NCBI RefSeq assembly: GCF_041227145.1
Contig: NZ_JBGFSP010000004.1
Span: 186,001 to 250,000, forward strand
Direction of reading: 5' to 3'
From: Bacteroides sp. AN502(2024)
GTDB taxonomy: Bacteria; Bacteroidota; Bacteroidia; Bacteroidales; Bacteroidaceae
Length of the DNA: 64,000 nucleotides
This document shows, one piece after another, positions 45,785 to 48,882 of this stretch. The notes beneath the pieces are model-generated. The model was not told where the DNA came from. It saw only the letters and a list, made by a program, of their open reading frames with translations, and did no database searches. The first letter of the stretch is position 1, and each line of letters starts with the position of its first letter. The translations under genes were made by a program, and so were the position numbers.

Positions 45785-46210
45785 TTAGTTATTTATTGGT
45801 TTTATAGTAAATGAAAATTTCTGTTTCAGTCGCATTTTATTGAGCCACAAGACGAAATAATAAGGCATAAGGACAGCTAAGGAAAAAAGAGCTGCATACA
45901 ATTCATTCTCCATCAATGCCATAAAAAGGAATAAAGAAAAAATCAGAAGTATGAAAGGAAGTACAAAAGCCAATACTACCGCCATCATGCCCATCGACAT
46001 TTCGCCAACTACCATCACCCTCTCTCCTACTTGATAAGAAGCAGCCGCAGTATCCGTTATATCTATGATTTTGTCCTTACTATCCGATGAGGAACAGTGC
46101 CCCTTTGCACTACAAGCCGCACAAGCCGATGTCTGGACAATCCTCACCGACAGATGAGAATCTTGTATGTTTTCCACAATACCTAGATGCTTTATAATAT
46201 TATTAGTCAT
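45785..46210 (-). CDS. rseC: RseC-family (SoxR-reducing system) protein
   Basis: 141 residues. The N-terminal part has TSACAACSAKGHCSSSD, a cysteine cluster typical of RseC, and two membrane helices follow (about 75-125). First gene of the rnf operon, 6 bases before rnfB, a standard position in Bacteroides. In E. coli RseC assists reduction of SoxR and modulates sigma-E; here a role in Rnf assembly or redox balance is inferred. Confidence 0.92.
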   Translation of the reverse strand: MTNNIIKHLGIVENIQDSHLSVRIVQTSACAACSAKGHCSSSDSKDKIIDITDTAAASYQVGERVMVVGEMSMGMMAVVLAFVLPFILLIFSLFLFMALMENELYAALFSLAVLMPYYFVLWLNKMRLKQKFSFTIKPINN

Positions 46211-46237
46211 TTTGCAAACTCCGCATTACAAATCGCG

Positions 46238-46245
46238 GCAAATTT
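46238..46245 (-). promoter_or_regulatory. -7 box of rnf operon promoter
   Basis: Minus strand TAAATTTG, an exact consensus match, 28 bases before the rseC start. Confidence 0.55.
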
Positions 46246-46815
46246 AATCATTATTTGTGAACTACGAAGCATTCCCCGTATTTTTTCTACATAATAATCT
46301 GTTATTTTCGTGTTTGCGTTATCGTACACGGGAAATAATACAAATTTACTTTACACGCTTTTAACGCTACGTTAAAAGAATCAATTTTATTTATTTGCGT
46401 TAATCATTTAATAATAAACACATTAAATGATTATTTTTCTTCCTATATTCCATAGTAAAACATGCAATTTGCATACGAAGCCAGCAATTACAAAAAAACA
46501 GAAGAATATATGACTTATTCGAAATTTTATTCATATCCTACGCAGTTCCGAGCTAAAACCGGTTCGTTTCCACACGGTTTTGCACAAAATATTCTTTCTC
46601 ATATAAGATAAAAAGTGCAAAACATCTGCCATCTGCAACAAAATCGAGATTATAGATTAATTATCAATCAGTTATAGCGTTGCAGATACCTGTTGCAGAT
46701 AGTTACAGATAATGGTATCTACAACACTCTGTGTGGCGATGGAAAGCTGTCTTTCAAGAGCAAGGTAACTGGTAAGAACAAGGTAACCCAGCCAAACAGC
46801 TACGCATAAATCTCC

Positions 46816-46976
46816 GTTTCCTTACTTTGAAACTCCAGTTTCCTTACTTTGAAACTCCAGTTTCCTTACTTTGAAACTCCAGTTTCCTTACTTTGAAACT
46901 CCAGTTTCCTTACTTTGAAACTCCAGTTTCCTTACTTTGAAACTCCAGTTTCCTTACTTTGAAACTCCAGTTTCCT
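46816..46976. repeat. 22-bp minisatellite, seven identical units
   Basis: Units start at 46816, 46838, 46860, 46882, 46904, 46926 and 46948, all identical, beginning GTTTCCTTACTTTG; a partial eighth unit begins at 46970. Each junction contains GAAACTCCAGTTTC, an almost perfect palindrome. There are no spacers and the length is not a multiple of three. Confidence 0.95.
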
Positions 46977-47008
46977 GCTTGGAAACGAGAGTTCCCACGC
47001 AGGAAACT
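46969..47008. repeat. Long hairpin ending the minisatellite
   Basis: AGTTTCCTGC pairs with GCAGGAAACT, and inside it TGGAAAC pairs with GTTCCCA (one mismatch) around a GAGA loop. About 17 base pairs, a stable RNA or cruciform structure. Confidence 0.75.
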
Positions 47009-47199
47009 ATGAATCGGAAGTAGGATACTGACGGAATGACCGGTACGATTCGTTTACGGTGTTGCAGATAACGGGCTATCTGCAACCATCTGCAACAGTA
47101 TCTGCAACGTTGTAACCAACTGTTTATTAATACATTATATCGATTTCGTTGCAGATGGCAGATGTTTTGCATTTTAAGAATGATATGTGTATAAACAAT

Positions 47200-47230
47200 T
47201 ATGACACCATACCATTGGTACGATGTCATA
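47200..47230 (-). terminator. Hairpin after xylE, possible terminator
   Basis: Arms TATGACA-C / G-TGTCATA with ACCATTGGT inside, 66 bases past the xylE stop. The T run on the minus strand is weak. Confidence 0.45.
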
Positions 47231-47295
47231 ATATCAATAGAACCACGTCAAAATACCGAGGTCGTAATGACATGATGTAATTACGCTAACCTAAT

Positions 47296-48750
47296 TTATT
47301 TATTTTTCTTCCAAAGCTTGCTCATATCCTCCAATGTCTTGCCCTTCGTTTCAGGCACCCAACGCCAAACGAAGATGGCAGCAGCTACGCAGATTATGCC
47401 ATATAAACTATACGCAAACATCGGGCTGAAATCGTACAATGCCGGAAAAGTAGAAGATACAATATAGTTAAATATCCATTGGAAAGCTACAGCGATAGCC
47501 ACTGCTTTACCACGAATGGTGTTTGGGAAAATTTCCGAGATCAATACCCAGCAAATCGGTCCCCAGGACATCATGAAGAATGCTGCATATACAATCACTG
47601 AAAGTACCGGAAGAATGCCCTTTATTGCCATGCTATCACACATTGCCACTGCAAATGCACCTACGGCCATACCGATAGAACCGATAATCAAAAGAGGTTT
47701 ACGCCCAAAGCGATCTACTGTAAAGATAGCAACCAGTGTAAAGACAATATTTACAACACCCATAATAACTGTCTGCATCATGCCACCTCCTTCTGCACCC
47801 GCATTTTCAAATATACGAGGAGCATAATATAGTACCGCATTAATACCGATAGCTTGTTGGAATACAGAAAGCAAAATACCGATCACAATTACTGCCATTC
47901 CATAAGTCAATATTTTCTCTGTCTTCTCATGAGCAGTAGCTTTAATATCATTAAGGATTTCCTGTGCTTTTGTCTTACCATTGATCTTTTCCAGAATTGA
48001 GTAAGCCTTTCCATCCTGCTGTATCAATACAAGATAACGGGGAGTCTTCGGAACAAAGAACAACAACAAACCAAAGAAAGCAGCAGGAAAAGCTTCCGAA
48101 CCAAACATGTAACGCCATCCTTCATAAACAGTCCACATATCAGATTCAGCACTAACAGACAGTGCACCGGCCGCATCTTTCAATATAACAGGATTCTGAT
48201 GATCGCCCATAATCAGGAAATTCACAAAGTACACTACCAACATACCAAAGATGATAGCAAACTGGTTACATGACACAAGCGTTCCACGAATATGGGAAGG
48301 GGCTATTTCAGCAATATACATCGGGCAGACTGCAGAAGCCAGTCCTACTCCGACACCCCCCAAAACACGATACAAATTAAAGGCAATCAACAGATCCATG
48401 TTCGGTTTTCCATATTCGAAGAATAAGAATTCCGGATAATAAGAACCTAATGCTGAAAGAAAAAAGAGTACGGCTGCAAGCCTTAAGGAATTACGGCGCC
48501 CCAAACGGGAAGCAAATATACCGGAGATCGCACCACCCAGTACACAGCCAATCAATGCACTGGAAGATGTGATTCCATGCATTACTTTATTATATTGAAA
48601 ATCGGAAGCCGAAAGGAAAAATGCCTCCAATCCTTTCTCTGCACCCGAAATAACGGCTGTATCATATCCAAACAGCAGTCCTCCCAAAATGGCGACAGAG
48701 GTTATCGAATATAGGTAGAGTTTACTACCCTCGTTCGTTGTATTAATCAT
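47296..48750 (-). CDS. xylE: D-xylose:H+ symporter, sugar porter MFS
   Basis: 484 residues from the ATG at 48750 (MINTTNEGSKLYLYS); the open frame extends to 48819 but that part lies in a repeat. Twelve membrane helices. Sugar-porter signatures: GGLLFGYDTAVISGA (helix 1), RLGRRNSL, YRVLGGVGVGLASAVCPMYIAE, FQQAIGINAVLYYAP (sugar site), DRFGRKPLL and WVPETKGKTLEDM. The long insert around NPVILKDAAGALS is typical of Bacteroides XylE. Last gene of the xylose operon. Confidence 0.93.
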   Translation of the reverse strand: MINTTNEGSKLYLYSITSVAILGGLLFGYDTAVISGAEKGLEAFFLSASDFQYNKVMHGITSSSALIGCVLGGAISGIFASRLGRRNSLRLAAVLFFLSALGSYYPEFLFFEYGKPNMDLLIAFNLYRVLGGVGVGLASAVCPMYIAEIAPSHIRGTLVSCNQFAIIFGMLVVYFVNFLIMGDHQNPVILKDAAGALSVSAESDMWTVYEGWRYMFGSEAFPAAFFGLLLFFVPKTPRYLVLIQQDGKAYSILEKINGKTKAQEILNDIKATAHEKTEKILTYGMAVIVIGILLSVFQQAIGINAVLYYAPRIFENAGAEGGGMMQTVIMGVVNIVFTLVAIFTVDRFGRKPLLIIGSIGMAVGAFAVAMCDSMAIKGILPVLSVIVYAAFFMMSWGPICWVLISEIFPNTIRGKAVAIAVAFQWIFNYIVSSTFPALYDFSPMFAYSLYGIICVAAAIFVWRWVPETKGKTLEDMSKLWKKNK

Positions 48751-48794
48751 AGTTATAAGTAGATAAAATAGTGTTGTAGTAGTTGGACATATAT

Positions 48795-48882
48795 CACCAC
48801 AGATTTCACAGATTGACACAGATAAGATTCAAAATGAGAGAGAAGAGAAATCTGCCTGTGAGAATCCGTGTAATCTGTGGTG
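48795..48882. repeat. Inverted repeat (CACCACAGATT type) between xylA and xylE
   Basis: Begins CACCACAGATTTCACAGATT at 48795. The right end (to 48882), read on the minus strand, begins CACCACAGATTACACGGATT. The arms cover about 38 bp each with some mismatches. Same family as the repeat at 4930-5075. It begins 8 bases after the xylA stop codon and could trim or stabilise the xyl mRNA. Confidence 0.8.

Follow-up and report, generated by a model that had tools for sequence, protein, structure and literature searches.

An intergenic Bacteroides element with word-bearing inverted arms is a probable gene-less relative of elements that bracket VirE genes

Within a stretch of 64,000 nucleotides of Bacteroides sp. 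AN502(2024) (contig NZ_JBGFSP010000004.1, positions 186,001 to 250,000; hereafter the window), we analysed an intergenic element in which two long inverted arms enclose a minisatellite and a hairpin (Table 1). The element is probably a gene-less member of a family of compact elements that bracket VirE genes, VirE designating here a protein with BT4734_N, a VapE-type ATPase and DUF3874, and its arms are probably iteron-like recognition sites of VirE, similar to the origin of staphylococcal pathogenicity islands (SaPI). Since the same kind of arm brackets VirE genes elsewhere, the window element looks like a stripped-down copy without the gene. The arms pair around about half of the VirE genes examined, carry a repeated word that changes from element to element in a recurrent layout, and the right one directly follows the VirE stop; in the window's own genome, gene-less copies are present beside one gene-bearing copy with the same word.

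The two arms were described in an earlier note, made from the sequence alone, as 46615–46727 and 47059–47172. The best local alignment recovered them with slightly larger extents (Table 1) and a score of 123, which none of 1000 dinucleotide shuffles reached (mean 17.6, maximum 31); when 633 equally spaced pairs were tiled through the window, the pair on the element scored 119 and the runner-up 31. The iterated words, the minisatellite and the hairpin reported in that note were also found: ATCTGCA-type words (at most one mismatch) occur at six places per arm, the tandem array has 99% matches according to Tandem Repeats Finder (TRF), and in the hairpin 46969–46986 pairs with 46991–47008. A small palindrome, GAAAC-TCCA-GTTTC, was read in each array unit. 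The arms enclose no complete open reading frame (ORF) of 60 aa, and so no VirE gene; the sole listed ORF of at least 60 aa over the element (46954–47229, minus strand, 91 aa) passes through the right arm and is taken for a chance ORF. The window copy is classed only as a gene-less relative of the VirE-bracketing family, a family defined in this analysis.

A search of the own genome (G000, 4.8 Mb, 15 contigs; L-numbers denote loci and G-numbers genomes of the comparison set) with the window element gave 88 matches. With overlapping matches merged, and two full-length and four array-only rows excluded, these amount to 43 arms at 27 places, 26 of which lie outside the window, with both arms at 16. 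The arms are thus dispersed and conserved, and not the single, unconserved occurrence that the earlier note had named as the outcome that would speak against it. Seven of the two-armed places are short, with no gene visible (the window, L038, L039, L040, L041, L044 and L045), eight hold an IS3-family insertion sequence (IS) between the arms (L030, L031, L032, L033, L035, L036, L037 and L047), and one (L034) encloses a gene of 698 aa. The nearest copy, L041, matches nearly all of the window element at 88% identity and lies between unrelated flanks; dispersal of the window type, though not its mechanism, is therefore demonstrated by the number of copies and the differing flanks. Arrays of 22–23-bp units with a different unit sequence are present in L034, L037, L038 and L041, and visual inspection showed altered forms of the window hairpin in L041 and L042. 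Because the likeness to L042 extends at least 32 bp beyond the left arm, to the query start at 46580, the outer edge of the element need not be at the arm. The window element has matches in 14 of 60 genomes sampled from the genus, the own genome being one of the 60. Of the options listed in the earlier note, a non-autonomous mobile element comes nearest, given the dispersed arms and array, the seven gene-less places and the gene-bearing relative with the same word; movement itself is what we infer from them.

Two of the gene-less places, L044 and L045, form a diverged sub-family in which hairpins replace the long array, and about 40 bp of the outer flank on the left of L044 recur on the right of L045. 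As for the insertion sequences, 8 of the 25 IS3-family orfB matches of the own genome sit between arms of the window repeat family, which may reflect either target preference or amplification of one insertion. In L037 the IS3-family element sits within the array, and in L078 (G021) IS110-family and IS3-family transposase genes occur together between two arms. Insertions of the IS3 and IS110 families in repeats are a known parallel to these occupied arm pairs; the IS elements are later passengers, and 17 of the 25 IS3 matches of the own genome lie outside its eight occupied pairs.

The 698-aa product of L034 contains a BT4734-like N-terminal domain (BT4734_N), a VapE-like and a DUF3874 domain, and its arrangement is repeated in G012, with arms, palindromes, a VirE gene and a DUF6078-like gene after the right arm. 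Because of this gene-bearing copy and its widespread relatives (VirE matches in 46 of the 60 sampled genomes, own included), VirE genes in general were examined for arms. For 50 Bacteroides loci (L111–L160), comprising 30 best-of-genome and 20 hand-chosen ones among the matches listed, 1.4 kb of left flank was aligned locally with 1.4 kb of reverse-complemented right flank; flank length excluded L113 and L140, and for the arm/word and pairing tests also L114, leaving 47. Matching inverted arms (score of at least 45) are present at 23 of these 47 loci, which include several close relatives and are not independent, versus 4 of 2024 mismatched pairs, formed by flanks of different loci with proteins less than 70% identical or too short to align. 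None of 36 window ORFs, used as a control, reaches this score. The threshold was chosen after the first scoring of the VirE loci had been seen; the counts are 25/47 versus 25/2024 at a threshold of 36, and 21/47 versus 1/2024 at 50. In a second set, from the taxonomic family (24 of 29 loci used, one of them, L222, from the same genus as the window), inverted arms were found at 8 of the 24 usable loci versus 2 of 552 mismatched pairs, the words again being different; one of the eight (L241) resembles another repeat.

The position of the arms relative to the gene is also recurrent. In 21 of the 24 loci with arms, the start of the right arm falls between 16 bp before and 40 bp past the stop codon of VirE, the exceptions being L116 (77 bp), L133 (338 bp) and L145 (912 bp), and the left arm lies further upstream of VirE, with an array (L034, L117 type), a HU-HIG-like gene or a DUF6078 gene intervening in the elements read. 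These intervening genes face outward or inward (profiles were run for five such proteins). The 23 elements measured, namely 21 of the 23 arm-positive loci (not L116 and L118) plus L144 and L157, have sizes of 1.7–4.3 kb. We also noticed a small gene family (M..WISIE.AA.KY) adjoining arms in several genomes (L144:1530–2222, L077:441–872, L081:4191–4640 and L191:723–1229); Pfam gave no match for the L144 member, the only one scanned.

The repeated word is not the same in all elements; examples are ATCTGCA (window, L111, L112), CTGTCAC (L115, L117, L119), ACCCTCA (L148), ATTCCGC (L136), TACAACC (L138), TTACGAA (L137), TCGTCAC (L125) and GATCTAG (L160). In many arms the copies nevertheless follow one order, with two direct copies 7–8 bp apart, a spacer of about 35–45 bp and three inverted copies about 12–13 and 8–11 bp apart, often followed by one more; for scoring, the start-to-start spacings were 7–8, 45–59, 11–13 and 8–11 bp. 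In 26 of 48 arms the layout score exceeds that of all 100 of the arm's own shuffles, and the window arms score 23/24 (left) and 24/24 (right), values reached by 0 of 100 shuffles each; since these very arms had served to derive the layout before they were scored, this is a consistency check only. With the strict layout in the second set, all 60 shuffles are surpassed only by the two arms of L233 and by the right one of L247. Apparently the same design with another word occurs at L087 (1260–1900), where an array of GAAAC/GTTTC palindromes, flanked by GTGACAG-type words, sits between genes that we take to be queC and queF; L091 has the same neighbours, and the genomes of these two loci are G009 and G059.

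We hypothesize that the words are bound by an element-encoded protein, most probably VirE by means of its C-terminal domain, which would open or copy the DNA there, as SaPI Rep does at its iteron origin. Copying from both ends could have helped such elements to spread, and the copy in the window, without its gene, would then be a relic or a passenger. It is possible, but doubtful at present, that these are self-spreading elements of a new kind, with a BT4734/VapE initiator-helicase, two inverted word-specific iteron origins as ends, no transposase or integrase, a word changing by lineage in a fixed layout, and gene-less copies such as that of the window as their satellites. Several observations weigh against the proposed relation to VirE. 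About half of the VirE loci examined show no arms, and the word does not track any single VirE domain (43 of 45 proteins, L142 and L113 excluded). The 23 VirE elements show no convincing target duplication, only scattered short matches, and none was seen by eye at the ends of the window element and L041; arm-bounded elements likewise yielded no clean empty site. In G021, the gene-less copies are without a same-word VirE among the seven loci read of eleven.

The missing duplications bear also on another explanation, namely that the element is an ordinary miniature inverted-repeat transposable element (MITE) moved by the DDE transposase of an IS, the link to VirE being incidental capture. The window family does consist of dispersed non-coding copies with terminal inverted repeats. 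Furthermore, a related sub-family (L030–L033, L035–L037, L040 and L047–L049, not all complete) resides in a larger unit, bounded by a 19-bp outer inverted repeat CACGGCTCTTTCCATTTAA, with 9-bp duplications at L031, L033 and L035, a left part that we take to be a fragment of an ISAs1-type transposase and a right part corresponding to the final piece of a DUF6078 gene. Where no profile is mentioned, duplications, remnants and gene names were assigned by eye. This outer unit was not seen at the window copy or L041, the pairing of arms around VirE genes with many different words is left unexplained by incidental capture, and the 23 gene-bearing elements lack convincing target duplications. As for the ends, the arms of the window element recur in a VirE element (L034), and own-genome comparisons, beyond which no wider search was made, revealed no intact transposase element with window-type ends. 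Even with the precedent of BrickBuilt, a MITE with a 23-nt minisatellite according to passages of PMC4596501, we regard this explanation as rather unlikely.

It seems improbable that the arms act in RNA, as 3' regulatory or terminator structures that, in several elements, lie behind the stop codons of both outward-facing genes in the same sense, with the window copy as a stray duplicate. The structured RNA suggested in the earlier note finds no support in Rfam, whose covariance models gave no match to 45800–47800 up to E = 1, elements of the array type (L034, L117) have no visible gene ending at the left arm, and the seven gene-less places retain both arms. What favours such a role is that words inside one arm can pair with each other and that in L123, L125, L133, L148, L150 and L156 VirE and a HU-HIG-like gene that faces outward each terminate close to an arm (the HU-HIG profile was run only for L148, L150 and L160).

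A further alternative is that the chromosome has a regular functional site here, serving the nucleoid, recombination or inversion, whose resemblance to the arms is a coincidence. The 1.1-kb gap described in the earlier note is bounded, as stated there, by a minus-strand gene starting at 46210 and a minus-strand ORF at 47296–48819, which from their translations we presume to be rnf and xylE. In favour of such a site, G021 carries a related element at the corresponding position, beside the same hairpin after xylE. Among 30 xylE loci (of 86 genomes with a match), however, the words are present only at G000 and G021 (the flank of L190 is too short for a verdict, and the comparison covered these words alone), so that the location is not conserved, and 26 of the 27 own-genome places lie elsewhere; a regular chromosomal site is therefore very improbable. 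The hairpin after the xylE-type gene is itself common to relatives, and since different sequences adjoin it in different species it may be a frequent junction.

Table 1. Positions of the features of the window element and of the adjacent hairpin.
Feature	Position	Strand	Basis or remark
Left arm	46612..46727	+	inverted partner of 47059-47175
Left-arm outer word pair ATCTGCC-ATCTGCA, spacing 7	46624..46637	+	word scan
Left-arm three inner words TGCAGAT, TGCAGAT, TACAGAT (opposite orientation), spacings 13 and 10	46681..46710	-	word scan
Left-arm terminal word ATCTACA	46717..46723	+	word scan
Tandem array, period 22 bp, 7.5 copies	46812..46976	no strand	TRF
Hairpin closing the array, arms 18 nt, 89% complementary	46969..47008	no strand	
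Right arm	47059..47175	-	alignment, layout score
Right-arm terminal word	47063-47069		word scan (coordinates converted from reverse complement)
Right-arm three inner words	47078-47084, 47088-47094, 47100-47106		word scan (coordinates converted from reverse complement)
Right-arm outer word pair	47150..47163	-	word scan
Neighbouring hairpin between the element and the presumed xylE-type gene, outside the element	47198..47232		marks the same site in genome G021 (L080, L162)

In the literature searched, no paper on arms at VirE genes was found by title or abstract start, and no assigned role was found for VirE/BT4734 genes. Iterons, the VapE helicase and MITE-like copies are each known, and their combination seems to be undescribed in that literature. 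Should the arms be cognate recognition sites, VirE genes would form a family of replicating or spreading elements that can be tested, and words that change within a recurrent layout would supply a natural series of protein-DNA specificities for decoding. VirE-bracketing elements could also explain some of the long inverted repeats between Bacteroides genes.

Besides the IS insertions in repeats, three described systems are closest to these elements. The BT4734-like family of archaeo-eukaryotic primases (AEP) is named in passages of PMC5862659, where VirE (VapE) domains are predicted to be helicases of mobile elements; the word "iteron" does not occur in its main text. The VirE proteins described here have the same Pfam domains, but lack the motif I acids. 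BrickBuilt of Porphyromonas gingivalis, with 19 copies in strain ATCC 33277 and its minisatellite inside inverted ends, is the closest described minisatellite-bearing MITE (PMC4596501). The window element is similarly intergenic and multi-copy, with a minisatellite within inverted ends, but the ends of BrickBuilt are 12-nt IS5-like repeats, whereas the arms of the window family have about 115 bp, contain repeated words and are tied to VirE genes. With regard to SaPI, Rep recognises short repeated words at the origin through its C-terminal domain, as described in passages of PMC7581432. VirE differs in its gene family (BT4734/VapE/DUF3874), and in having two word sets, inverted, that bracket the gene; in the twelve elements read for ORFs, no integrase or phage gene was seen inside the arms. 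Replication is here a prediction of our analysis. Nevertheless, as in the SaPI-type origin with its Rep helicase (and SCCmec Cch2), the words adjoin the 3' end of a helicase-type gene at the VirE loci, the window copy being the one without a gene, and VirE has a VapE-type ATPase domain and a C-terminal winged-helix-like part.
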